From NCBI GenBank assembly GCA_030679145.1, contig JAUXTU010000116.1, positions 62,001 to 126,000 of the forward strand: a DNA stretch of 64,000 nucleotides, written 5' to 3'. The position numbers and the translations under genes are program-made. Shown here piece by piece: positions 1 through 62,278 of the stretch. Every line of letters starts with the position of its first letter. Position 1 is the stretch's first letter. Source of the DNA: Bacteroidota bacterium. Its GTDB lineage: Bacteria > Bacteroidota > Ignavibacteria > UBA10030 > UBA8401. The notes below the pieces were generated by a model. The model was not told the origin of the DNA. It ran no database searches and saw only the letters and a program-made list of their open reading frames with translations.

Positions 1-1
1 T

Positions 2-1123
2 GCTGCGTTCGGATGTTTGGTTCCGCGTTTGGTGAGCGGAGAATTTGATCCCGAAAAACATAAAGCGATTTGGCCTTCAACCGGTAATTATTGCCGCGGT
101 GGAGCGTTCGATTGCCGTTTATTGGATTGCACGCCAATAGCAATTCTTCCCGAAGGAATGTCGAAGGAACGTTTTGTTTGGCTGAAGGGAATTGGTGCAG
201 AAGTAATTGCAACACCAGGAACAGAATCGAACGTGAAAGAAATTTACGACAAATGCTGGGAACTGAAAAAAGATCCGCTCAATATCATCTTCAATCAGTT
301 TGAAGAATTTGGCAATCCAATCTGGCATTACAATGTCACCGGTCCGGCGCTGGAAGAAGCATTTCAAGCACTTGGAGTAAAAAATGGAAATGCAGCCGCA
401 TATATTTCTGCTACCGGTTCTGCGGGAACAATTGGTGCGGGAGATTTCCTAAAAAAACTTCATCCGAATCTCAAGATCGTTGCAAGCGAGGCGCTGCAAT
501 GCCCGACATTGTTGATGAACGGATTTGGCGAACATCGCATTGAAGGTATTGGCGATAAGCATATTCCGTGGGTTCATAATGTGCGGAATACTGACACAGT
601 TTCCGCAATTGATGATGAGGATTGTATGCGCGTGCTTCGCTTGTTCAATGAAGTTGAAGGACAAAAATATTTGAAATCGCAGGGGGTGACCGACGTTGAA
701 TTGGAAAATTTGAAGTTGATGGGAATTTCCAGTATTTCGAATATGCTTTCATCAATTAAAACGGCGAAATATTTTGAATATGGTGCGAATGATGTTGTGC
801 TGACAATTTTTACGGACGGCGCTGATATGTATCACTCTCGTGTTGAAGAATTGCGAGATGAACGAGGTGCTTATACAACAATCGAAGCTGCAAAAGATCA
901 TGCCGCTCCGTTGATGCATCAAAGTATCGATTACTATAGGGAACTTTCATACTACGATAAAAAAGCAATTCACAATCTGAAATATTTTACGTGGGTTGAA
1001 CAGCAAGGAAAATCATCCGATGAATTGCGCGAACAATGGAATCCGGAATACTGGCGTTCACTGTTTGAAGATGAAGTTGCACAGTTTGATAAATTGATTA
1101 CAGAGTTTAATGCAATGATGTAG
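2..1123 (+). CDS. PLP-dependent fold-type II enzyme (cysteine synthase-like), 5' end outside window
   Basis: The reading frame is open from base 2, reading AAFGCLVPRLVSG, so the gene begins upstream of the window. The TTG at 17 is internal, not the start. At least 373 residues are present. An STGN motif near the start matches the asparagine loop that holds the PLP cofactor in the tryptophan-synthase-beta/cysteine-synthase fold. ATGSAGTIGAG around residue 135 matches the glycine-rich phosphate-binding loop. The Schiff-base lysine would lie in the missing N-terminal part. PEGMS and GAEVIATPGTESNVKEIYDK are typical of the cysteine-synthase-like proteins that neighbour ygeY genes. It is not recognisably diaminopropionate ammonia-lyase (YgeX), although it occupies a comparable place. 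Its substrate is unknown; a beta-elimination or replacement on an amino acid is likely. Confidence 0.8.
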   Translation, partial: AAFGCLVPRLVSGEFDPEKHKAIWPSTGNYCRGGAFDCRLLDCTPIAILPEGMSKERFVWLKGIGAEVIATPGTESNVKEIYDKCWELKKDPLNIIFNQFEEFGNPIWHYNVTGPALEEAFQALGVKNGNAAAYISATGSAGTIGAGDFLKKLHPNLKIVASEALQCPTLLMNGFGEHRIEGIGDKHIPWVHNVRNTDTVSAIDDEDCMRVLRLFNEVEGQKYLKSQGVTDVELENLKLMGISSISNMLSSIKTAKYFEYGANDVVLTIFTDGADMYHSRVEELRDERGAYTTIEAAKDHAAPLMHQSIDYYRELSYYDKKAIHNLKYFTWVEQQGKSSDELREQWNPEYWRSLFEDEVAQFDKLITEFNAMM

Positions 1124-1148
1124 ATAAAATGTTAATCACAAATTCCTA

Positions 1149-1289
1149 GAAACCATCTTAAAAATGAATTTTATTGTCATTCCGAACGAAGTGAGGAATC
1201 TCGTTTTAATAATTGAAGTCAAAACCGAGATTTCTCCCCGCCTTCGGCGGATCGAAATGACAATGATTCGGTATTTTTGAGATGGCTTC
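1149..1289. repeat. long nested palindromic intergenic repeat
   Basis: The gap before the M20 hydrolase gene holds a nested inverted repeat. The outer arms 1149-1165 and 1273-1289 pair at about 15 of 17 positions. The inner arms start with attgtcattccgaacgaag at 1173 and return as gatcgaaatgacaat ending at 1264; both carry a gaatctcg/cgagattt core. A small perfect hairpin, CCGCC-TTC-GGCGG, lies at 1238-1250 inside the right arm. This CATTCCGAACGAAGTGAGGAATCTC type is, from general knowledge, a dispersed non-coding repeat seen in many Bacteroidota genomes. It could fold in RNA and act as a processing site or attenuator between the two genes. Confidence 0.75.
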
Positions 1290-1316
1290 TTGTAAAAAAT
1301 AAAAAAGGATAAAATC

Positions 1317-2516
1317 ATGTTACAAAAAATCTATGCAGAAGCAAAAAAAAATGAACGTGCTGTTGCGGAATTTCTTCGTGAACTGATCGCAATTAAGTCG
1401 CTCAGTTCACAAGAAGGAAATGTTATTGCGCGTGTAAAGCAGGAAATGGAAAAATGCAAATTCGATGAAATTACGATTGACCCGATGGGAAACATTATTG
1501 GTCGTATCGGTCACGGAAAGCATGTAATTGCATTCGATGCTCATGTTGATACAGTTGATGTCGGCAATCCTGAAAATTGGAAAGTTGATCCGTTCAAAGG
1601 CGATGAAAAAGGTGGTATCATTTATGGACGAGGCGCATGCGATATGAAAGGGGCACTTGCATCGATCATTTATGGCGGAAAAATTATCAAAGACCTCGGC
1701 CTTGAAGGTGATTATACATTGTATGTTGTCGGAAGTGTTCAGGAAGAAGATTGCGATGGTTTGTGCTGGCAATATATTATCAAAGAAGATAAAATTCGCC
1801 CTGAAGTTGTTGTGATCACCGAACCGACAAATCTTGCAGTGTATCGCGGCCACCGCGGACGGATGGAAATTGAAGTTCGCACCAAAGGAATTTCGTGTCA
1901 CGGTTCTGCACCGGAGCGGGGCGTGAATGCAGTGTATAAAATGGCTCCAATCGTTCAAGATATTGAGAAATTAAATGAACGCCTTGGCGGTGAACCATTC
2001 CTCGGAAAAGGAACGGTAACGATTGCAGAATTCCGTTCAACATCTCCTTCGCTTTGTGCGGTTGCCGATTCTGCAACAATTCATTTGGATCGTCGTCTTG
2101 CTGCGATCGATACACTTGAATCTGCAGTAAAAGAAATTCAAGATCTGCCGAGTGTAAAAGCTGCTGGTGCAGAAGTTGTTGTGTTAGATTATGCTGTGCC
2201 GAGTTGGAAAGGTCTTACGTATCCGACCCAAAAATATTTTCCGACATGGCTTCTTCCTGAAAACGATCCTGTTCTGAAAACAGGTGTAAAAGCATTTGAA
2301 GGATTGTTCGGAGAAAAACCGGTTGTCAGCCGCTGGGTGTTCAGTACAAACGGTGTTGCAGTGATGGGAATGCATGGAATTAAATGTATCGGCTTTGGTC
2401 CGGGAAATGAAATTTATGCGCACATGGCAACGGAACATATTCTTGTTGAACAATTAGTGAAAGCTGCGGCGTGGTATGCGGCATTTCCGAAAACGTATTT
2501 AACAGAATTGAAATAA
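1317..2516 (+). CDS. ygeY: YgeY-family M20 metallohydrolase
   Basis: This 399-residue protein is an M20 peptidase/deacylase-type zinc hydrolase of the YgeY group, whose members are linked to selenium/molybdenum-hydroxylase and ureide clusters. Visible metal-site motifs are AFDAHVDTV near residue 80 (His and Asp ligands), GRGACDMKG near residue 115 (bridging Asp) and VGSVQEEDCDG near 140 (general-base Glu pair). ITEPTNLAVYRGHRGRMEIEV follows, and the dimerisation domain begins with the usual HGSAPERGVNAVYKM. The closing EIYAHMATEHI provides the last His. The ATG at 1317 follows an aaaaaggat purine run. It sits 13 bases before the carbamate kinase gene, so the two are probably co-transcribed. 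The exact amide substrate is not known; an N-carbamoyl or amino-acid amide is an inference from neighbours. Confidence 0.85.
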   Translation: MLQKIYAEAKKNERAVAEFLRELIAIKSLSSQEGNVIARVKQEMEKCKFDEITIDPMGNIIGRIGHGKHVIAFDAHVDTVDVGNPENWKVDPFKGDEKGGIIYGRGACDMKGALASIIYGGKIIKDLGLEGDYTLYVVGSVQEEDCDGLCWQYIIKEDKIRPEVVVITEPTNLAVYRGHRGRMEIEVRTKGISCHGSAPERGVNAVYKMAPIVQDIEKLNERLGGEPFLGKGTVTIAEFRSTSPSLCAVADSATIHLDRRLAAIDTLESAVKEIQDLPSVKAAGAEVVVLDYAVPSWKGLTYPTQKYFPTWLLPENDPVLKTGVKAFEGLFGEKPVVSRWVFSTNGVAVMGMHGIKCIGFGPGNEIYAHMATEHILVEQLVKAAAWYAAFPKTYLTELK

Positions 2517-2529
2517 ATTACTGTAACCA

Positions 2530-3474
2530 ATGGACAAACCAATTTTAATTGCTATCGGCGGTAATTCGTTGATCCGTCATGGTCAGCGTGGATCGATCAA
2601 TGAGCAAATTGAAAACGCAGCAACAACGTGTCATCATCTTGCGGCACTCATTGAACAAGGTCACACATTGATCATCACCCACGGAAACGGACCGCAAGTT
2701 GGCGCGCAGCTTATTCGTTCTGAGCTCGCGTCGTCTCAAGTGTATCCGCTGCCGTTGGATAGCTGCGATGCATCAACGCAGGGAGAAATGGGTTATATTC
2801 TGCAAAATGCTCTCCGTTCCGCGCTGCATGCTCGTGGAATCTCAAAACCAATCGTTACAATTCTTACTCAAGTTGTTGTGGGAAAAGATGATCCTGCGTT
2901 TACGAATCCGTCGAAACCGATTGGTCCATTCTATTCCCAAAAAATTGCAGAAGAACGAAAACGAGATCTTGGCTGGCAGATTATTGAAGATGCTGCGCGC
3001 GGTTATCGCCGCGTTGTTCCGTCTCCGCAGCCGATTGAAATTGTTGAATTAGATGTGATCGAGCATTGTGTGAACGATGGAATGATCGTCATCGCAGCAG
3101 GCGGCGGTGGAATCCCGGTTATTGAAGAACATGGAATCTATCGCGGTGTGGAAGCGGTCATTGATAAAGACCGGGCATCTGCGCTGCTTGCAAAGAAACT
3201 TCATCTCAAAAAATTTATCATTTCAACCGACACTGATCGAGTATATTTAAACTTCAAGCAGTCGAATCAAGTTGCATTGGATAGACTTTCATTAGCACAG
3301 GCGTTACAGTATCAAAGTGAAAAACATTTTCTTGCAGGAAGTATGGGACCGAAAGTGGAAGCAGCAATTGATTTTGTTTCCCACGGCGGTGAAGAAGCAA
3401 TTATTACACGACCGGAACTTCTTGTTGAAGCGATAAACGGAACAGCAGGAACGCATCTTTATATGAATGGATAA
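2530..3474 (+). CDS. arcC: carbamate kinase
   Basis: The 314-residue protein matches carbamate kinase over its full usual length (about 310). It opens with PILIAIGGNSLI (phosphate-binding loop), followed by LIITHGNGPQVG, the QGEMGYILQNAL segment, and IAAGGGGIPVIEE with GVEAVIDKDRASALLA (nucleotide-binding part). GSMGPKVEAAIDFV lies near the C-terminus. In catabolic settings it makes ATP and carbamate from carbamoyl phosphate and ADP. It is placed between the YgeY hydrolase and a carbamoyltransferase-fold protein, the same trio as in the E. coli yge/yqe cluster (there yqeA). This suggests it harvests carbamoyl phosphate from purine or ureide breakdown rather than from arginine. Confidence 0.93.
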   Translation: MDKPILIAIGGNSLIRHGQRGSINEQIENAATTCHHLAALIEQGHTLIITHGNGPQVGAQLIRSELASSQVYPLPLDSCDASTQGEMGYILQNALRSALHARGISKPIVTILTQVVVGKDDPAFTNPSKPIGPFYSQKIAEERKRDLGWQIIEDAARGYRRVVPSPQPIEIVELDVIEHCVNDGMIVIAAGGGGIPVIEEHGIYRGVEAVIDKDRASALLAKKLHLKKFIISTDTDRVYLNFKQSNQVALDRLSLAQALQYQSEKHFLAGSMGPKVEAAIDFVSHGGEEAIITRPELLVEAINGTAGTHLYMNG

Positions 3475-3484
3475 TAGGTGACCT

Positions 3485-4408
3485 ATGAAAATCAAACATG
3501 TTTTAGAATCGCAGCAATTCACACTTCCGATGTTAACGGAGTTATTTGAACGTGCTCGCGAAATGGAAATTGTATTAAAGCGAGGCGGTACGCGAGATTA
3601 CGATAAGAAAGTAATGGCTTCTCTTTTTTACGAATCAGGGTTGTTGACTCGTTTCTCTTTTGAATCTGCAATGGCGCGCCTTGGCGGGAAAGTAATTTCA
3701 ACAGAACATGCATCGAAATTTTTCTCTTCAACACCGGGAGATGAACTTGAAGATACGATACGCGTTGTTGATGATTTTTGTGATGTTATTGTGCTGCGTC
3801 ATAATCACATCGGCGGAGTAAAACGTGCTGCGGCAGTTTCAAAATGTCCCATCATCAATGCCGGTGATGGAAAAGGAGGGCAGCATCCAACGCAGGCATT
3901 GCTCGATCTCTATACGATCCATAAAGAAACAAATAAGCTTGATGGTTTGCGAGTTGCAATGGTTGGGGATCTTGCGGAGGGACGCACAGTCCGATCTCTT
4001 TCCTATCTTCTCGGAAAATACGAAAGAGTAAAAATATATTTTGTTGCTCCAAAATCGCTGCAGATGAAAGCCGATATGCTTTCGCATTTTGAAGAGAACA
4101 ATGTTTGGTTTACACTGGAAGAAAACCTTCATTCAGTGCTTCCAGAAGTTGACGTTGTATATACCACAAGTATCGATCGCGACCGATTTAGCGGAAGTGA
4201 TGATGAATATTCAAAATTTAAAAAAGAATATTACATCGATGGCAATTCATTGAAACTGCTCCACAACAAGGCAATTGTTATGAATCCTCTTTCGCGTGAT
4301 GGAGAAATTGCCCACGAAGTTGACAGCGATCCACGCGCGGCATATTTTCACCAGACGCAAAATGGCGTTATCATTCGTATGGCGCTGCTTGCGTGGGTAA
4401 TGGAATAA
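3485..4408 (+). CDS. ATCase-like carbamoyltransferase with altered active site
   Basis: This 307-residue protein aligns by eye almost without gaps to E. coli aspartate carbamoyltransferase, so numbering nearly coincides. Retained: R105 (IVLRH), H134 (GGQHPTQALLDLYTI), R167 (MVGDLAEGRTV) and R271 of the PLxR loop. Changed: the carbamoyl-phosphate motif STRTR (52-56) reads GLLTR, so the S52, T53 and R54 equivalents are lost. The 80s-loop K84 is P84. The aspartate-side R229 and Q231 are S229 and D231, and P268 of PLPR is S270. It is shorter than YgeW (about 396), so it is not simply that protein. The ATG follows an ataggtg sequence ten bases after the kinase stop. Fold assignment is firm; substrate is unknown. 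It probably works with the adjacent carbamate kinase. Confidence 0.85.
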   Translation: MKIKHVLESQQFTLPMLTELFERAREMEIVLKRGGTRDYDKKVMASLFYESGLLTRFSFESAMARLGGKVISTEHASKFFSSTPGDELEDTIRVVDDFCDVIVLRHNHIGGVKRAAAVSKCPIINAGDGKGGQHPTQALLDLYTIHKETNKLDGLRVAMVGDLAEGRTVRSLSYLLGKYERVKIYFVAPKSLQMKADMLSHFEENNVWFTLEENLHSVLPEVDVVYTTSIDRDRFSGSDDEYSKFKKEYYIDGNSLKLLHNKAIVMNPLSRDGEIAHEVDSDPRAAYFHQTQNGVIIRMALLAWVME

Positions 4409-4417
4409 TATTTCGTT

Positions 4418-5023
4418 ATGCATTCAACAATTTCCGCCATTATACTTTCTGCAGGTTCTTCCCGGAGAATGGGAACACCGAAAGCATTGCTCAAAATTGG
4501 AAAGAAAATATTTCTTCACCATATCATTGATACTGTTGAATCTGTTGGTCTAACAAACAATGTTGTTGTGCTTGGCTTTGAGTCGCAAACAATTCGAGAA
4601 ATACTTTCTTCATTTAGCGGAACAATAATTGTCAATGAAGCATGGGAAGAAGGACAGCTTTCTTCCATTATTGCCTGCATAAATGCATTGAATACGATTG
4701 ACTGCGAAGGAATTTTGATCTGTCCCGTTGATCATCCAATGATAACGACAGCATTGATAAAAAAATTAGTTGAATCGTTTCAACATTCTCGGAAAAAAAT
4801 TATCATTCCAACATATCATGGCAGGCGAGGGCATCCGATCATAATTTCTTCTGAATTGTTTGTAGAAATTAAAAATGCTTCTTTTACTGTTGGATTGCGC
4901 GAAGTTGTCCATGCTCATGAAAATGATATTGAGTTGGTTTCGACTGACGAAGAAGGAATTCTTATTAATATTGATACACCGGAAGATTATCGAAAATATG
5001 TTGGTAATTTGCAGCTTGAATAG
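4418..5023 (+). CDS. mocA: MocA-like molybdenum cofactor nucleotidyltransferase
   Basis: The 201-residue protein has the MobA/MocA-type nucleotidyltransferase start, IILSAGSSRRMGTPKALL, which matches the LAAGxSxRMGxPK NTP-binding signature. It also has ICPVDHPMI near residue 107 (the metal-binding Asp motif) and HGRRGHPIII near 145. MocA adds CMP to molybdopterin for enzymes of the xanthine dehydrogenase family. The gene lies directly upstream of xdhA and xdhB, so the cofactor is likely matured here for that enzyme. In E. coli the homologue ygfJ/mocA also sits in the purine cluster. The C-terminal NIDTPEDYRKYV is typical of the family. Confidence 0.87.
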   Translation: MHSTISAIILSAGSSRRMGTPKALLKIGKKIFLHHIIDTVESVGLTNNVVVLGFESQTIREILSSFSGTIIVNEAWEEGQLSSIIACINALNTIDCEGILICPVDHPMITTALIKKLVESFQHSRKKIIIPTYHGRRGHPIIISSELFVEIKNASFTVGLREVVHAHENDIELVSTDEEGILINIDTPEDYRKYVGNLQLE

Positions 5024-5052
5024 TGGTCATAACTATATTTGAATATTTAGAT

Positions 5053-5085
5053 TTTTGTAAATGCAATTTTGAAAGAGTATCTTTG
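5053..5085 (+). promoter_or_regulatory. Bacteroidota-type promoter for xdhA, apparently leaderless
   Basis: TTTTG at 5053-5057, a 20-base spacer and TATCTTTG at 5078-5085 match the Bacteroidota sigma consensus TTG-N19-21-TAnnTTTG exactly in the -7 box. The transcription start expected a few bases downstream falls at about 5090, where the xdhA ATG lies. The mRNA would then have little or no leader. Confidence 0.6.
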
Positions 5086-5089
5086 TTCT

Positions 5090-6517
5090 ATGAATATCCT
5101 GGAATGTATCATCAACAATAAAGCGATTGAAGTTCTTGCCAATCCCGGTATTGTTGTGCTTGATTTTCTACGACAACACGAACATCTCATGGGAACAAAA
5201 GAAGGATGCCGTGAAGGTGATTGCGGTGCCTGTACAATTTTGGTAGGCGAGTTGCATGGAAATGAAGTTATTTACAAATCAGTCAACTCATGTTTGATGC
5301 CGCTGGGTGATGCTCATGGAAAACACATTGTTACAATAGAAGGTATCAATCAGCCAAAAGAACTTAATCCGATTCAGCATGCATTTGTTGAAGACGGGGG
5401 AACACAATGTGGTTTCTGCACTCCTGGTTTCATCATGTCGCTAACGGGATATTGTCTTAACAACAAGCAATTGAAGAGCTCGGAAGCAATTCATTCTGTT
5501 GATGGAAATATTTGCCGATGCACCGGACATCCACCGATCAAAAAAGCTATTCATCATATTGTTGATGGATTGAAAAAATTTCCGAAGACGAATGGAACAC
5601 CACTGACTCATCTCATTGAACAAAACATTCTTCCTGAATATTTTCTCTCAATTCCGAAACGACTTGAAGCGATAAATATTGCACCGTTGGTAGATGTTCA
5701 TATTGAAGAAGAACATATGACTGTTGTTTCCGGCGGAACAGATCTTTATGTGCAAAAAGCATTTTCGATGCATGCAGAAAGAACGAAACGCATTTCATCA
5801 TGGCAGAAACATGTTCCCATTACAGAAGATGAAACATTGATTCATCTTCCAGGCACGACAACAGTTGAAGAATTTCGGCTTTCACCTGTTATTGCAAAAT
5901 ATTTTCCGGAATTGAAAACACAGTTTGAACTGTTTGGTTCGACACCAATTCGAAATCGTGCAACCGTTGCAGGAAATATTGTCAACGCTTCGCCAATCGG
6001 TGATATGACATGTTTGTTAATTGCATTGAACGCTTCTCTTAGACTTCGAGACGGCGGTTCACAGCGGACAATTCCTCTTCGACAATTCTACAAAGGCTAC
6101 AAACAAATCGATAAGAAGAAGTCAGAGCTTATTGAATCAATTTCATTCCCGCTGCCAAAGCCCAATTCGCGATTGAGCTATGAAAAAGTATCCCGCCGTA
6201 AATATCTTGACATTGCAAGTGTAAATACAACTATGGCATTTGAACTGAATAACGACCGCATTGTGAATTGCGGGATATCTGCGGGAGGAGTCGGACCAAC
6301 ACCATTATTTCTTGCAAAGACGTCAGAATATCTGAATGGTAAAATTCTGAACGGAAAATATTTTGAAGATGCACTTGAGATCGCGCAAACAGAGATTAGT
6401 CCAATCAGCGATGCGCGCGGTAGTGCAGAATATAAACGATTGCTTCTTCGTCAACTTATGGTTACACACTGCATGAAATATTTCCCCGGTATAGTGAGGA
6501 AGGAATCACTTGTATGA
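5090..6517 (+). CDS. xdhA: xanthine dehydrogenase small subunit (2[2Fe-2S] + FAD)
   Basis: The 475-residue protein joins the two iron-sulphur domains and the FAD domain, as in bacterial XdhA. The plant-type ferredoxin domain has GCREGDCGACT near residue 40. The second [2Fe-2S] domain has QCGFCTPGF near 105 and NICRCTGH near 145. The FAD domain starts around VVSGGTDLYVQ (about 215) and carries RNRATVAGNIVNASPIGD near 295. Electrons from the molybdenum subunit would pass through these clusters to FAD and NAD. A longer reading from TTG at 5069 is possible, but ATG 5090 fits both the ferredoxin start and the promoter just upstream. The stop overlaps the xdhB start (ATGA), indicating translational coupling. 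Confidence 0.92.
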   Translation: MNILECIINNKAIEVLANPGIVVLDFLRQHEHLMGTKEGCREGDCGACTILVGELHGNEVIYKSVNSCLMPLGDAHGKHIVTIEGINQPKELNPIQHAFVEDGGTQCGFCTPGFIMSLTGYCLNNKQLKSSEAIHSVDGNICRCTGHPPIKKAIHHIVDGLKKFPKTNGTPLTHLIEQNILPEYFLSIPKRLEAINIAPLVDVHIEEEHMTVVSGGTDLYVQKAFSMHAERTKRISSWQKHVPITEDETLIHLPGTTTVEEFRLSPVIAKYFPELKTQFELFGSTPIRNRATVAGNIVNASPIGDMTCLLIALNASLRLRDGGSQRTIPLRQFYKGYKQIDKKKSELIESISFPLPKPNSRLSYEKVSRRKYLDIASVNTTMAFELNNDRIVNCGISAGGVGPTPLFLAKTSEYLNGKILNGKYFEDALEIAQTEISPISDARGSAEYKRLLLRQLMVTHCMKYFPGIVRKESLV

Positions 6518-8793
6518 AAAATTTTGATTCCGAAAAACATGTCCGCGGAGAATCGCAATTTGTGGATGATCTTTTAGTTCCGGAAGGGACGCTGTATGCC
6601 CATGTCTACTATTCGCGCGTTGCCCATGGGAAAATTCTATCAATCAATCTTTCTGCCGCAGAAACAATGACTGGTGTTACGGCAATATTTACTTCAAAAG
6701 ATATTCCCGGAGCAAATCAGATTGGCGGAATTGTTCCCGATGAACCGCTTCTTGCCGAGCAGTATGTTCATTTTAACGGTCAACCAATCGCTGTTGTTGT
6801 TGCAGATTCTGCTTTTCACGCACGTTCCGCCACTGAAAAAATTGTTGTCGAGATCGAGAAACTTCCGGTTATTACTGATCCAAGAGAAGCATTTTCAAAA
6901 AATGAATTGCTTGTTCCGCCGATGACGATTGAACTTGGTGATATCAATGCGACGTGGTCGAAATGTGATATTGTTGTTGAAGGAATTGCAGAAACCGGCG
7001 GGCAGGAACATTTGTATCTGGAAACGCAAGGAGCTTTTGCGGTTCCCGTTGAAGGCGGTGCTGTGAAAGTTGTTTCATCAACGCAAGGTCCCACCGCCGT
7101 TCAACGCACAATTTCGAAGGTGCTTAACATTCCGATGAATAAAATTGAGGTTGATGTTCTGCGTCTCGGCGGCGGTTTTGGCGGAAAAGAAGATCAAGCT
7201 ACTCCCTGGGCAGTTATGTGCGCGCTTGCCGCAACAAAACTCCGTCGTCCGGTGAAGATGATTCTGCATCGTCAGGATGATATGAGAATGACCGGAAAGC
7301 GTCATCCATATTCATCAGATTTCAAAATTGGATTGAAAAGCGATGGAACGATTCTTGCCTATGAAGTAACATTCTATCAAAACGGCGGCGCAGCTGCCGA
7401 TCTCTCTCCCGCAGTGTTGCAGCGAACGATGTTTCATTGCACCAACAGTTATTTTATACCGAATGTTAAGGCAATCGGGTACAGCTGCCGAACCAATCTT
7501 CCTCCGAACACTGCCTTCCGCGGATTTGGCGGACCACAGGGAAAATTTGTGATTGAAGCAGCAATTTTCAAAGCAGCAGAAGCAATGAATGTAGAACCGT
7601 CATTCATTCAAAAGAAAAACCTTTTGAAGAACGGCGATGAATTTCCATACGGGCAAATAGCGGAACGATGTCAAGCTATTCCATGCTGGAATTCACTTGA
7701 GCAAAAAATATCAATTGGCAATGTAAAAAAGAAAGTGGATGATTTTAATAGTGCAAATGAATGGAAGAAAAAAGGATTCGCTCTCATGCCGATCTGTTTT
7801 GGTATCTCATTTACGAATACCATGATGAATCAGGCGAGCGCACTTGTTCATATTTATACGGATGGCAGTGTCGGTATCAGTACCGCTGCAATCGAAATGG
7901 GACAAGGAGTGAATATGAAAATTCACGCCATCGCTCAGAAAATATTTTCCATCAATACTGAACGTATCAAACTTGAATCGACAAATACAACCCGCGTCGC
8001 AAATACATCGCCAACAGCAGCAAGTTCCGGTGCGGATTTGAATGGAATGGCAACGCAATTAGCATGTAATGTTCTTCTTGAACGATTGATAAAATTTGCA
8101 GCAGAACAATTACACCAGTATGATCCGACTAAGATCTCAATTAGCGATGAAAAAATATTCAATGATGGAAAAGAAACAGAGTGGACCTGGACGAAATTAA
8201 TTTCCGCAGCAAATGCCGCCCGCATTAGTTTAACATCGCATCATTTTTACTCAACACCCAAAATATATTTTAATCGTGAATCGTCAAAAGGACATCCATT
8301 TGCATATCATGTTTTTGGAACTGCTCTCATCGAAGTAACACTTGATTGTTTGCGTGGAACATACGAGATCGATGCAGTGAATATTGTTCATGATGTTGGC
8401 AAAAGTTTACAGCCAGCTATCGATCTCAGCCAAGCGGAAGGGGCAATAATGCAAGGAATTGGCTGGATGACAGTGGAGGAGATCATTTATAATAATGAAG
8501 GAAGATTGATCACTGATGCTCTTTCAACATACAAAGTTCCTGATGTTCATTTTGCTCCGAAGGAAATGAATATCAGCTTTCTCGAAAACTCTGAAAATCC
8601 CTTTGCTCCATTCAATTCGAAAGCGATCGGAGAACCTCCTTTCATGTACGGCATTGGTGCATATTTCGCACTGCTGAATGCAATTAAAGCATTCCGTCCC
8701 AATACAACCTATTCCGCAATTGCTCCAATGACACCGGAACGGGCATTGTCGTTATTGTATAAGGAGGTCGGAACACTTGCTCCTGCACTTTAG
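6514..8793 (+). CDS. xdhB: xanthine dehydrogenase molybdopterin-binding subunit
   Basis: The 759-residue protein is the molybdenum subunit of the xanthine oxidase family. By eye alignment to bovine XDH the substrate and catalytic residues are kept: E226 in GGGFGGKE (bovine E802), R304 in VLQRTMFH (R880), R336 in AFRGFGGPQG (R912) with the following Phe, the Phe-Thr of GISFT (F1009-T1010), and E707 in IGEPPF (E1261). EMGQGVNMK is the pterin-contacting loop. These features favour a true purine hydroxylase over a CO dehydrogenase or aldehyde oxidase. Two nearby positions differ (V1011 to N, L1014 to M), which may tune substrate choice. It overlaps xdhA by four bases and the next gene by 17. Confidence 0.92.
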   Translation: MKNFDSEKHVRGESQFVDDLLVPEGTLYAHVYYSRVAHGKILSINLSAAETMTGVTAIFTSKDIPGANQIGGIVPDEPLLAEQYVHFNGQPIAVVVADSAFHARSATEKIVVEIEKLPVITDPREAFSKNELLVPPMTIELGDINATWSKCDIVVEGIAETGGQEHLYLETQGAFAVPVEGGAVKVVSSTQGPTAVQRTISKVLNIPMNKIEVDVLRLGGGFGGKEDQATPWAVMCALAATKLRRPVKMILHRQDDMRMTGKRHPYSSDFKIGLKSDGTILAYEVTFYQNGGAAADLSPAVLQRTMFHCTNSYFIPNVKAIGYSCRTNLPPNTAFRGFGGPQGKFVIEAAIFKAAEAMNVEPSFIQKKNLLKNGDEFPYGQIAERCQAIPCWNSLEQKISIGNVKKKVDDFNSANEWKKKGFALMPICFGISFTNTMMNQASALVHIYTDGSVGISTAAIEMGQGVNMKIHAIAQKIFSINTERIKLESTNTTRVANTSPTAASSGADLNGMATQLACNVLLERLIKFAAEQLHQYDPTKISISDEKIFNDGKETEWTWTKLISAANAARISLTSHHFYSTPKIYFNRESSKGHPFAYHVFGTALIEVTLDCLRGTYEIDAVNIVHDVGKSLQPAIDLSQAEGAIMQGIGWMTVEEIIYNNEGRLITDALSTYKVPDVHFAPKEMNISFLENSENPFAPFNSKAIGEPPFMYGIGAYFALLNAIKAFRPNTTYSAIAPMTPERALSLLYKEVGTLAPAL

Positions 8794-9265
8794 TAAACGC
8801 AATGCGCTGCAGAGTGCACTGATCTATGCGGCCGGAGATGCAATTGCAGCCTTGCTGCTTCATTCGTTTTCATTCCCACGTATGATCGGAATGGCGATCA
8901 TTGGAGGCACTCTCTATTCATTGGAAATTCCAAATTATTTCCATTGGATCAATACCCACACACATTTGATGGAAGGAATGAAAGCGAGTGTGCGCCGAAC
9001 GATTCTTGCGCTGTTGTATTTCAATCCGATTTGGATTGCGAGACATTTGGCATTTGTTCAAATATTCTCGGGTCAAACGTTCCAACTTTCGTGGGGTCTT
9101 TTGTGGATCAGTTACAATTCTTTTACAATGAACATTCCATTTACGGTGACGATCAATTATCTTATACAAAATAAAGTTTCACTTCATCGTCGGTTTCTCG
9201 CCAGCTCAATTTTTTCCGGCGTTATGGCAATATATTATGCCATGAGTCAAGTGTGGTTTAAATAA
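8777..9265 (+). CDS. small multi-spanning membrane protein, distantly Mpv17/PMP22-like
   Basis: The 162-residue protein has about four hydrophobic segments: roughly residues 13-30, 34-50, 95-125 and 143-158. A strong AAGGAGG at 8761-8767, nine bases before TTG 8777, decides the start. The gene therefore begins inside the xdhB C-terminus and is probably translationally coupled. The order GDAIAALLL, then PRMIGMAIIGGTLYSLEIPNYFHWI, a P-I-W segment, and W(x)SYNSFTMNIPFT near the end recalls the Mpv17/PMP22 layout: GD, GxxxxGPxxHxWY, then WP-x-QxxNFxxVPxxxR. The resemblance is by eye and weak. The context, between xdhB and xdhC, suggests a role in purine or product passage across the membrane, but nothing in the sequence proves it. 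Confidence 0.7.
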   Translation: MLLHFSKRNALQSALIYAAGDAIAALLLHSFSFPRMIGMAIIGGTLYSLEIPNYFHWINTHTHLMEGMKASVRRTILALLYFNPIWIARHLAFVQIFSGQTFQLSWGLLWISYNSFTMNIPFTVTINYLIQNKVSLHRRFLASSIFSGVMAIYYAMSQVWFK

Positions 9266-9271
9266 TACCCT

Positions 9272-10243
9272 ATGAAAAATAAAGCATTCTGGAAATTTAT
9301 TCTTGATCAATTAACCGTCGGCAAACAGATGCTGCTGCTGACCGTTGTTGATCATGTAAAGGGTTCTCCCGGTAAAAGCGGATTTAAACTTGCATTCACT
9401 TCCGATAAACAAACCAATGGAACAATTGGCGGCGGGATTATGGAATACGGAATGATCGAACAGTATTCCGAGCGATTGAAAACAAAAGAGAATATTTGTG
9501 AGCTACGGTATTTGGTGCATGCACCGAACGCAACGCATGGAGAACCATCCGGACTTTCATGCGCCGGTTCGCAGACCAATTGCGCTCTGTCATTAAACAG
9601 TAAAGACCTTCCAATTATCACAGCAATTTATAATGCCGTAGTGAATAATACAACATCAAAGCTTGTCATAACAGAAAAGGGTATTGCATATTCTGAAGGA
9701 AAAAATTCTCAACAAAAAAAGTTCCAAAGCAGCTCAGCAGCTGAATGGGTATACGAAGAGAATATAGGACCCGAGTTTACGTTATTCATTATCGGCGGCG
9801 GACATGTTGGCAATGCGTTGTCGCGTATTATGGCAACTCTGGATTTTTACGTTATCATCTATGACGAGCGAAACGATCTGCCGATGTTACAAGAGAATTC
9901 TTTTGCCAATAAAAAAATAATTGCCCCGTATTCAGAGCTTGGTTCATATATTATCTCCCCTGAAAAAACATTTGCCTCAATTGTTACATCAAACTTCGTA
10001 TCGGATTCGATTGCATTGCAGCAGTTGCTTCCGCTTCATCTCTTTTATGTCGGAATTATGGGTGTTGAAGCGAAGATCGCGCGAATAAAGAATTCGCTGA
10101 ATGACTTCGAACGGGAACTACTTAATGGGCAAAAAATATTTGCTCCGATCGGAATGGAAATAGGGAGCGCAACGGCAGAAGAAATTGCAGTAAGTATTGC
10201 CGCGGAGTTGATTAAAGTAAAAAATGAAAAAAACAGAGTTTAA
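9272..10243 (+). CDS. xdhC: XdhC-family molybdoenzyme maturation factor
   Basis: The 323-residue protein has the XdhC/CoxI N-terminal domain (LTVVDHVKGSPGKSG near residue 24, NGTIGGGIMEYGMIEQ near 50, CAGSQTNC near 103). It also has a C-terminal Rossmann domain opening with LFIIGGGHVGNAL near 172 and VSIAAELI at the end. XdhC proteins bind sulfurated molybdenum cofactor and insert it into XdhB. The gene closes the cluster, six bases after the membrane protein. No YqeB or YqeC homologue is seen in the window, so nothing here points specifically to a selenium-dependent form of the enzyme. Confidence 0.9.
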   Translation: MKNKAFWKFILDQLTVGKQMLLLTVVDHVKGSPGKSGFKLAFTSDKQTNGTIGGGIMEYGMIEQYSERLKTKENICELRYLVHAPNATHGEPSGLSCAGSQTNCALSLNSKDLPIITAIYNAVVNNTTSKLVITEKGIAYSEGKNSQQKKFQSSSAAEWVYEENIGPEFTLFIIGGGHVGNALSRIMATLDFYVIIYDERNDLPMLQENSFANKKIIAPYSELGSYIISPEKTFASIVTSNFVSDSIALQQLLPLHLFYVGIMGVEAKIARIKNSLNDFERELLNGQKIFAPIGMEIGSATAEEIAVSIAAELIKVKNEKNRV

Positions 10244-14751: not shown

Positions 14752-15942
14752 TTAGCTCTGTAAAACTTTTTCTATTCTTTTCAGGGCCCAATTAATTTCT
14801 TCTTTAGTGATAACAAGAGGGGGTGCAAAACGAATAACAGTGTCGTGAGTTTCTTTACAAAGGATTCCTTCAGTCATCAATGATTCGCAATATGGGCGAG
14901 CGCTCACATTAAGTTCAAGACCGATCCATAATCCGCGACCACGTATATCAACAATGTGAGAACTTTTTATTGAGCGAAGTCTTTCAAGAAAATAGTTTCC
15001 TAACTCAAATGAACGCTCAATCAACTTTTCATCAAACAGCACATCAAGAGCAGCGATTGCAACAGCCGCGGCGAGTGGGTTTCCGCCGAATGTTGAACCA
15101 TGTTCCCCGGGTTGAAAAACACCTAACACTTCTTTCGTGGAAAGAACTGCAGAGACGGGATAGAATCCTCCGCTCAATGCCTTTCCGATAATGACTGCGT
15201 CAGGACGAATTCCTTCGTATTCATATGCGAATAATTTTCCGCTGCGCCCAAGTCCTGATTGGATTTCATCAAGAATGAGCAGAACATTATTCTCTTTGCA
15301 TAAACGCGCAGCTTCGCGCAAATATCCAACGGGTGGAATAATGATTCCCGCTTCACCCTGGATCGGTTCAACAAGGAATGCGGCAGTATTCTTTGTGATT
15401 GCATCTTTTAATGCAGCAATATTTCCGAACTCAACGATCCGAAATCCGGGAGTGAAGGGACCAAAATTATTTCTGTAAGCATCTTCCGTTGAAAATGAAA
15501 CAATCGTTGTCGTTCGTCCGTGGAAATTATTTGCCGCGCAGATTATTTCTGCCTGACCATCAGGGATACCTTTCTTTAAGTATCCCCATTTTCGCGCGGC
15601 TTTTATCGCGGTTTCCACAGCTTCCGCACCGGAATTCATCGGCAATGAAATATCATATCCGGTGACATCGTGAAGTTTTTTGTATAAAAGGGAAAGTTTA
15701 TCATTGCGGAATGCTCTGCTGGTAAGCGTAACATTTTTTGCTTGTTCTATGAATGCAGCATAGATCTTTGGATGGCAATGCCCTTGATTGACAGCCGAAT
15801 ATGCTGCAAGGCAGTCTAAATATTTTCTTCCTTCAACATCTGTAACCCATACGCCCTCAGCTTTATTGATAACGACATCCAAAGGATGGTAATTATGTGC
15901 GCCAAATTGTTCTTCTAATGAAATATAATCTTGAGTGTTCAT
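14752..15942 (-). CDS. rocD: ornithine--oxo-acid aminotransferase
   Basis: The 396-residue protein is a class III aminotransferase of the ornithine delta-aminotransferase type. It has the opening [20 protein letters not shown] with [28 protein letters not shown], the [19 protein letters not shown] segment, [20 protein letters not shown] (PLP-contacting Asp), the PLP lysine in [15 protein letters not shown], and [21 protein letters not shown]. It converts ornithine and 2-oxoglutarate to glutamate semialdehyde and glutamate. Length is normal (about 400). A ggagag sequence at 15947-15952 precedes the ATG. It is transcribed alone, with no arginine or proline gene beside it. Confidence 0.93.
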
Positions 15943-60881: not shown

Positions 60882-62278
60882 TATGCTTTCGTCATCTGCT
60901 TTTTCCAGTAAAGATAGAATGGAATACCAGCAACAAGCAGGAATAATCCCACCATAGAATCTGCAGTTTGTTCAACGATCGTATTATAAACAAACCATGT
61001 TGCGACGATAATGAATAAGATTGGAATAATCGGATACAACGGAACTTTGTATGAACGTTCAGCATGTGGTTGTTTAGCGCGAAGAATAAATACTGCAACG
61101 GCTCCAAGCGCATAGAATATCCATCCTGCAAATATCACATAAGTGAATATCTGATCGTATGTTCCTGTTAAGCATAAAATGGAAGCCCATGTTCCTTGTA
61201 TGACCAAAGATTTTGCCGGTGTCCTGAATTTGGGATGAACTTCGCCCATTTTTTTGAAAAACATTTTATCCTTCGCCATTGCATAGAACACACGTGCAGT
61301 GGTCATTGATGTTGCATTGACTGTTCCAAACGTAGAGATCATCACCATTGCAGAAATAATTGCGCCACCCCAGCCGTAAAAAACAACATTCATCACATCT
61401 GCGGCTACTAATTTTGATTGAGCAATCTGACCGATGGGAAGAATATAGAGATAAGCAAGATTTGTCGTAACATAGATAACAATAACAGCGAGTGTTCCAA
61501 TAATGAGTGCTCGTGGAATATTCTTTTGAGGCTCAATCACCTCTCCCGCAAGATACGTCAACGAATTCCAACCGTCGTATGACCATAACGTTGCGATCAT
61601 CGCAACGCCGACAGCGGCAAGCAAAGAACCTGAAGAGGGCATTCCCCACAGCGGAAAAAAATGATCGACACTTCCTTTTCCCGATGAGAATGCTAAAACA
61701 ATGATTGCTCCAATTGCTGCAACTTTCAAAATAGTGAACACATTCTGGATCATTCCGCCGAATTGAACTCCAAAATAATTGATCGTAGTTACAGTTATGA
61801 TAGCGAGAATGGCAATCATTGTAACACCAATATTCTTTAACGGAAAAATATTTCCGAGGAGTGGAAGCTGCCATGCTTCAAGTTCCGGTCCAAGATGCGG
61901 AAGATCGACGAAATATCCGAGATACTTTGCGAAGGCAACAGCGATCGCTGCAATAGAACCTGTTTGATAAACAATGAATGTTGTCCATCCATATAAAAAT
62001 GCAGTCAGTTGACCGAATGTAACGCGAAAAAAAACATATTGTCCGCCGGCTTCTGGAATTAAACTTGCGACTTCCGCATTGGTCAACGCTCCTGCAAGCG
62101 TCAGTAATCCGGTCAAGATCCAAACGCCGATCATCAATCCGGGAACATCAACATTAGCGGCGACATTTTGCGGTGTAAGAAATATTCCGGATCCGATAAC
62201 AGATCCGATGACAACCATTATTGCATTGGTGAGCGTTAATCGGCGGGCAAGGGTGGTTCCATGCTGGTCAGATGACAT
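60881..62278 (-). CDS. APC-family amino acid permease
   Basis: The 465-residue protein has about 12 hydrophobic segments and the APC-family start TLTNAIMVVIGSVIGSGIFLTP (helix 1 with the GSGIF motif). EAGGQYVFFRVTFGQ follows near residue 75, then LWSYDGWNSLTYLAGEVIEPQKNIPRAL near 235 and STFGTVNATSMTTARVFYAMAKD near 315. It resembles the LAT/AGT subgroup of amino acid exchangers. It moves amino acids across the inner membrane; the exact one is not visible. A ggag sequence lies a few bases before the ATG on the minus strand. Confidence 0.88.
   Translation of the reverse strand: MSSDQHGTTLARRLTLTNAIMVVIGSVIGSGIFLTPQNVAANVDVPGLMIGVWILTGLLTLAGALTNAEVASLIPEAGGQYVFFRVTFGQLTAFLYGWTTFIVYQTGSIAAIAVAFAKYLGYFVDLPHLGPELEAWQLPLLGNIFPLKNIGVTMIAILAIITVTTINYFGVQFGGMIQNVFTILKVAAIGAIIVLAFSSGKGSVDHFFPLWGMPSSGSLLAAVGVAMIATLWSYDGWNSLTYLAGEVIEPQKNIPRALIIGTLAVIVIYVTTNLAYLYILPIGQIAQSKLVAADVMNVVFYGWGGAIISAMVMISTFGTVNATSMTTARVFYAMAKDKMFFKKMGEVHPKFRTPAKSLVIQGTWASILCLTGTYDQIFTYVIFAGWIFYALGAVAVFILRAKQPHAERSYKVPLYPIIPILFIIVATWFVYNTIVEQTADSMVGLFLLVAGIPFYLYWKKQMTKA

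Follow-up and report, generated by a model that had tools for sequence, protein, structure and literature searches.

A candidate pseudo-transcarbamylase beside carbamate kinase in a bacterial urate-degradation cluster

What does an aspartate carbamoyltransferase (ATCase)-like protein do in a urate-degradation cluster when the residues with which its relatives bind phosphate have been replaced? The question is raised by a gene, here called ATCx-GLL, in the window (the whole stretch of 64,000 nucleotides that was analysed), which lies on a 151.8-kb contig and has base 62001 of that contig as its first position (Table 1). The TIGR00670 score of its product, 276.8 bits, lies above the cut-off of 236.95, so that automatic annotation would read ATCase. 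Our analysis makes it probable that ATCx-GLL has been retained as a non-catalytic partner, or else is an altered enzyme, and is not the aspartate enzyme of a database-style annotation.

Table 1. Features of the urate-degradation cluster and sites of replacement in ATCx-GLL (window positions unless prefixed L004, the fetched upstream part of the contig)
Feature	Position	Strand	Basis or remark
YgeW, 395 aa, STRTR	L004:16411-17598		Upstream of window; TIGR03316 639 bits, cut-off 500
YgeX (diaminopropionate ammonia-lyase position)	1..1123	+	PALP family; 5' end upstream, frame runs into L004; assigned by gene order and homology
YgeY, M20 hydrolase of urate pathway	1317..2516	+	TIGR03526 576 bits
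Carbamate kinase (YqeA/ArcC position)	2530..3474	+	TIGR00746 371.5 bits, above cut-off
ATCx-GLL, 307 aa	3485..4408	+	ATCase fold, phosphate-binding residues missing; Pfam OTCace_N and OTCace
Phosphate loop, codons 52-54: G-L-L for S52-T53-R54	3638..3646	+	Alignments
80s loop, codons 80-84: F80 and P84 for S80 and K84	3722..3736	+	Alignments; low-pLDDT segment
240s loop, codons 229-231: S-I-D for R229-x-Q231	4169..4177	+	Alignments; relatives R-I-E/D
HxLP site, codons 267-270: N-P-L-S for H265-P-L-P268	4283..4294	+	Alignments
MocA-like NTP transferase (molybdenum cofactor)	4418..5023	+	Also adjoins ATCx in genome G308
Xanthine dehydrogenase small and large subunits	5069..8793	+	TIGR02963 and TIGR02965, both below curated cut-offs

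An ATCase-like gene within a urate-degradation cluster

When the window is joined with the fetched upstream part of the contig, the gene order is threonine-synthase-like PLP enzyme, SsnA, YgfK-like protein, XdhD of the selenium-dependent-XDH type, YgeW, YgeX, YgeY, carbamate kinase, ATCx-GLL, MocA, xanthine dehydrogenase subunits and XdhC. This cluster fits the reductive uric-acid pathway known from work on E. coli, where YgeY removes one ureido group by hydrolysis and YgeW cleaves the other ureido group of diureidopropionate by phosphorolysis, giving carbamoyl phosphate for ATP generation (PMC12507026); which ureido group YgeW attacks is disputed (PMC12990295). The ATCx-GLL ORF is unbroken, starting 11 bases past the carbamate kinase stop codon with AGGTG preceding its ATG. 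The structure prediction that the earlier note had proposed was run with AlphaFold2 (45-sequence alignment) and gave a model with the ATCase fold (mean pLDDT 93, pTM 0.92), for which the best Foldseek matches are Arabidopsis ATCase (6ypo/6yvb; TM about 0.94, 48% identity over the structural alignment) and in which pLDDT falls below 50 only in residues 81-85, in the 80s loop. The protein presumably forms a trimer.

Elsewhere in the genome a true PyrB is encoded, its gene flanked by a pyrR-like gene and by pyrC, and an ornithine carbamoyltransferase (OTC) gene lies in an arginine cluster; the separate PyrB in the pyr operon rules out ATCx-GLL as the only ATCase of this genome. Nor is it a short form of YgeW, as a true YgeW is encoded by a separate gene in the same cluster and TIGR03316 is absent among the ATCx-GLL matches; the remark that the protein is shorter than YgeW holds (307 vs 395 residues). 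In the portion of the urate cluster that was fetched (L004 and window 1-10243), no hyuA was seen. A D-hydantoinase/dihydropyrimidinase (608 bits) is encoded on contig C15 (L041 2281-3660), beside a dihydropyrimidine-dehydrogenase-like gene, and a role of ATCx-GLL as a HyuA substitute was rejected on this account and because an ATCase fold gives no reason to expect hydantoinase chemistry.

Several other features of this region were recorded. The threonine-synthase-like PLP enzyme (L004:9115-10395; TIGR00260 223 bits), which PMC12507026 does not list among the urate-cluster genes of E. coli, adjoins SsnA in at least six urate clusters from different genomes of the order, the others being at loci L065, L224, L225, L227 and L228. 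The YgfK homologue (L004:11740-13770) has 676 residues and scores 408 bits against a cut-off of 835, its best-matching stretch covering no more than about the first 400 of 1012 model positions; the yanthine-reducing step may use a shorter enzyme. An ORF encoding 162 residues at 8777-9265, flanked by the genes for the xanthine dehydrogenase large subunit and for XdhC, has no Pfam or NCBIfam match. T9SS-type C-terminal repeats (NFPNPFNPST) are also encoded in the window and hint at a member of the FCB group.

Residue replacements, the ATCx subfamily and the GLL clade

Residue numbers follow E. coli ATCase, the sequence of which was verified against PDB 1ekx, unless stated otherwise. Residue roles are taken from the established ATCase literature and from a 2015 family review, according to which SxRT, HPxQ and HxLP are characteristic of all known transcarbamylases, with some variation allowed (PMC4581275); the title of PDB entry 1acm reads 'Arginine 54 ... 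is critical for catalysis'. An alignment to the E. coli enzyme bore out what the earlier note had read by eye, namely G-L-L in place of S52-T53-R54, P in place of K84, S229 and D231 for R229 and Q231, and S270 (in the numbering of the protein itself) for P268, with R105, H134 and R167 retained, and added the replacements S80→F, E86→D and H265→N. Also retained are T55, Q137 and R296. Of the hallmarks of PyrB, HPxQ (as HPTQ) and the ATCase fold (Foldseek) are present, and SxRT, K84 and R229-x-Q231 are replaced by GLLT, P84 and S-I-D.

The extent of this departure is seen when ATCx-GLL is aligned with 53 distinct canonical members of the subfamily described below, here called ATCx, and 79 distinct ATCases. 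R54, K84, R229, Q231 and P268 are found in 79/79 ATCases and none of the five in ATCx-GLL; the S-T-R sequence occurs in all 53 canonical relatives and in 78 of the ATCases, the remaining one having S-S-R. R54 is lost in none of these 132 other ATCase-type sequences, which makes the loss of SxRT unusual.

Among 391 genomes from the same class, relatives of ATCx-GLL (53-68% identity, E up to 1e-95) were found in 101, about a quarter, and on sequence grounds we define them, together with ATCx-GLL, as an ATCase-like subfamily, ATCx, which is monophyletic apart from ATCases (support 100/99). Canonical members have S-T-R-T and H-P-L-P throughout (53/53) and R229 in 51/53, whereas position 231 is E or D in 51/53 (Q in 79/79 ATCases) and position 84 is K in only 4/53 (79/79 ATCases). 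At least one further match to the ATCase model above the cut-off was present in each of 20 ATCx genomes tested, so that ATCx is not the sole ATCase-like protein of those 20 genomes. The earlier proposal of a paralogue with a different acceptor is thus upheld as to paralogy, given the separate true PyrB; on the acceptor side, Q231→E/D proved to be a property of the subfamily as a whole, as did the loss of K84. A published description of an ATCx-type group was sought in the literature and none was found, in keeping with the suggestion that the group may be undescribed.

Carbamate kinase adjoins ATCx in nearly all neighbourhoods examined (genome G160 being the exception), the usual order being COG2403-like protein, OTC, carbamate kinase and ATCx, often with an ornithine-aminotransferase-like gene; the COG2403 and RocD labels are names given from sequence and not model matches. 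The COG2403-like protein, which begins near MGAAGRDFHNFN (L028:5609-7045; also L029-L039 and L066-L074) and accompanies OTC-carbamate kinase-ATCx, has no NCBIfam match. In the window an ornithine-aminotransferase-like gene lies at 14752-15942 on the minus strand, about 10 kb downstream; in OTC-carbamate kinase clusters of the same family such a gene directly follows ATCx.

The profile search for the GLLTR and P84 signature that had been proposed was run as a collection-wide scan of DNA for the pattern F-[YF]-x-x-G-L-L-T-R-x-S-F-E. Besides the window gene it yielded two true members, JAEUSJ010000213 (MAG-300) and JAEUSK010000163 (MAG-301); a third match, from a Bacteroidales MAG, was unrelated, and the scan returned nothing else. 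Both proteins are 78% identical to ATCx-GLL and both genes follow YgeY and carbamate kinase, with a YgeW that is 90% identical in one MAG and 85% identical across a contig-end fragment in the other. The gene after ATCx in MAG-300 (L105:2784-4268) and MAG-301 (L106:3595-5079) encodes a 494-residue protein that replaces MocA and is without an NCBIfam match. GLL, F80, P84 and D86 are common to all three GLL proteins. In the order window, MAG-301, MAG-300, position 229 is S, R, R, position 265 is N, H, H and position 268 is S, S, P, so that MAG-301 has R229 with HPLS and MAG-300 R229 with HPLP; position 85 also varies. The substitutions therefore do not form the single signature that had been supposed: GLL, F80 and P84 are clade-wide, D or E at 231 is subfamily-wide, and S229, N265 and S268 vary within the clade.

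Selection on the GLL genes is strong and purifying, with dN/dS of about 0.05 in one pair: MAG-300 and MAG-301 ATCx differ by 81 synonymous and 21 non-synonymous codons (dN 0.031, dS 0.59, ratio 0.053), a value that comes from this single pair of the three GLL sequences known, dS being saturated for the others. For the same pair, carbamate kinase has a ratio of 0.078 and YgeY one of 0.028. When the window copies are compared with those of the MAGs, dN is 0.14 for ATCx and 0.16 for carbamate kinase, with dS saturated. Of 129 positions conserved in the subfamily, the three proteins retain 118-119. All three depart at positions 43, 52, 53, 54, 80 and 86, four of the six being phosphate ligands (hypergeometric P about 2e-5), and of the 16 departures found in any GLL protein nine lie in a 16-residue active-site set (P about 4e-6); the residue sets were picked post hoc from known ATCase structures, which makes both P values indicative only. 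Positions 85, 229, 265 and 268 vary inside the clade and are nearly invariant outside it, with weak enrichment (P about 0.02). In these alignments the shared losses fall on the phosphate site, and the HxLP and 240s loops are drifting within the clade. An assembly error or local frameshift was excluded, as the GLL and STP codons differ synonymously among the three MAGs in a constant frame; purifying selection and the recurrence of GLL in three MAGs argue against both decay and assembly error.

Origin of the gene pair and function of ATCx-GLL

Carbamate kinase and ATCx behave as a two-gene cassette. The carbamate kinase tree groups the four urate-cluster copies (support 100/99) and the ATCx tree agrees with it; hence the two genes seem to have joined the urate cluster as a unit. 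The sister of the GLL clade is the ATCx of genome G308, which also lies in a urate cluster and has a canonical phosphate site, and the phosphate site of the GLL clade appears to have been lost after the pair's entry. The two genes are adjacent not only where they follow OTC but also in G308, where a YgeW/OTC-like protein precedes them, and since the kinase is constant whether the upstream transferase is OTC or of the YgeW type, it is the likeliest partner of ATCx. The G308 carbamoyltransferase (L065:2562-3563; 333 aa, STRTR) scores below the YgeW, OTC and acetylornithine carbamoyltransferase cut-offs and may be another unassigned transferase. The urate cluster of a family mate (G243) is without carbamate kinase and ATCx, and neither was seen in that of a genus mate (G093), the contig of which was read only from YgeW upstream and the ATCx of which is located in an OTC cluster instead; ATCx thus seems not to be needed in those two urate clusters.

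Our working hypothesis, held with about even confidence, is that ATCx-GLL is a retained pseudo-transcarbamylase acting with carbamate kinase. A kinase-ATCx pair, from a subfamily that travels with carbamate kinase, would have joined the reductive urate-degradation cluster, where one lineage would have retained the protein but not its phosphate-binding residues. ATCx-GLL most likely no longer makes or phosphorolyses carbamoyl compounds and would persist as an ATCase-shaped partner of carbamate kinase, perhaps of YgeW too, with a possible role in assembly, or in channelling or regulating the carbamoyl phosphate that passes from YgeW to the kinase. The combination expected of a pseudoenzyme, catalytic residues lost from a gene under purifying selection, was found here, the phosphate ligands S52, T53, R54, S80 and K84 being replaced in all three GLL proteins. 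Against it, all three proteins still have T55, R105, H134, Q137 and R167, residues of the carbamoyl and alpha-carboxylate side, and may therefore have preserved a ligand site and some chemistry; the urate clusters of G093 and G243, in which neither carbamate kinase nor ATCx was seen, also count against it. A literature search for a non-catalytic transcarbamylase returned nothing relevant. More tentatively, and we think it doubtful, ATCx-GLL, no longer binding carbamoyl phosphate but keeping its carbamoyl/ureido and carboxylate pocket, could serve a catabolic carbamate kinase as a sensor or scaffold subunit that couples the ureido acids of urate degradation to ATP formation, ATCx being in that case a new carbamate kinase-associated family with the same role.

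The main rival is a repurposed enzyme acting on ureido acids without phosphate, which we regard as rather unlikely. Its substrate would be an intermediate of the urate pathway (diureidopropionate, albizziin or 3-amino-2-ureidopropionate, for example), with T55, R105, H134 and Q137 holding the ureido acid and R167 its carboxylate, for hydrolysis (water in place of phosphate) or for a reaction with another donor. The retention of these residues in 3/3 sequences, the strong purifying selection and a pathway in which ureido acids are intermediates all speak for it; yet YgeY and YgeW already deal with the two ureido groups (PMC12507026), the drift of HxLP and 240s-loop residues is unexpected of a re-optimised active site and no new conserved catalytic residue is apparent. 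The earlier note's reading, a working catabolic carbamoyltransferase in which substitute residues bind phosphate and which supplies the adjacent kinase, is improbable. The kinase does adjoin, canonical relatives with SxRT and HPLP could be catabolic transcarbamylases, and the K84-less subfamily shows K84 to be dispensable for whatever ATCx does; however, phosphorolysis needs the phosphate site from which S52, T53, R54, S80 and K84 are all gone, the phosphate contacts are reduced to T55 and R105, GLL, F and P bring no replacement charge, and YgeW is already there for this step. Decay of an ATCx gene carried into the urate cluster with a useful kinase is very improbable, for although active-site residues seem to have been lost stepwise and the genus-mate cluster does without ATCx, the gene is intact in three genomes at the low dN/dS given above, with at least 118 of the 129 conserved positions kept, and GLL and TP are themselves conserved through saturated synonymous change. 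That ATCx-GLL is an ordinary ATCase, as its TIGR00670 score would have it, is scarcely credible when the five residues found in 79/79 distinct ATCases are all missing and the genome encodes a true PyrB next to pyrR and pyrC.

Relation to known systems and significance

With the catalytic chain of class II ATCase (Arabidopsis PyrB, E. coli PyrB), ATCx-GLL shares the full-length fold and T55, R105, H134, Q137, R167 and R296, but S52, T53, R54, S80, K84, R229, Q231, H265 and P268 are all replaced. The pseudo-ATCases, among them the ureidoglycine carbamoyltransferase (UGTCase) Rxyl_2847 (PMC4016543), are likewise ATCase-like paralogues beside carbamate kinase in a purine-degradation cluster, and they too have altered R-x-Q and HPLP motifs. 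The published pseudo-ATCase groups 1-3, however, keep STRT and have AIA/AIS/SIA, GX[SC] or VXP with HPLA, H[ST]LP or HSLP (PMC4016543), whereas ATCx has R-I-E or R-I-D with HPLP and the GLL clade is without STRT, ATCx-GLL itself having SID and NPLS; the published motif table thus sets them apart. YgeW, a knotted carbamoyltransferase (PMC12507026), shares cluster and pathway genes with ATCx-GLL, yet it matches TIGR03316 and has STRTR, whereas ATCx-GLL is of the ATCase type. A precedent for the proposed partnership comes from Pyrococcus furiosus, in which, according to work cited in PMC6022934, carbamate kinase interacts with carbamoyltransferases and channels carbamoyl phosphate; there, as here, a carbamate-kinase-family enzyme is found with ATCase-fold or OTCase-fold proteins around carbamoyl phosphate, but in P. 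furiosus active transferases are combined with an anabolic kinase (PMC6022934), whereas here it is gene order alone that suggests an interaction.

The anaerobic urate degradation pathway received its first biochemical description only in 2025. If ATCx-GLL is indeed a non-catalytic partner, carbamate kinase would be tied to a pseudo-transcarbamylase in this pathway, and a K84-less ATCase-like subfamily, carried by roughly one in four of the genomes surveyed in this class and called aspartate carbamoyltransferase by TIGR00670, would be exposed. At minimum, our findings point to a systematic annotation error.
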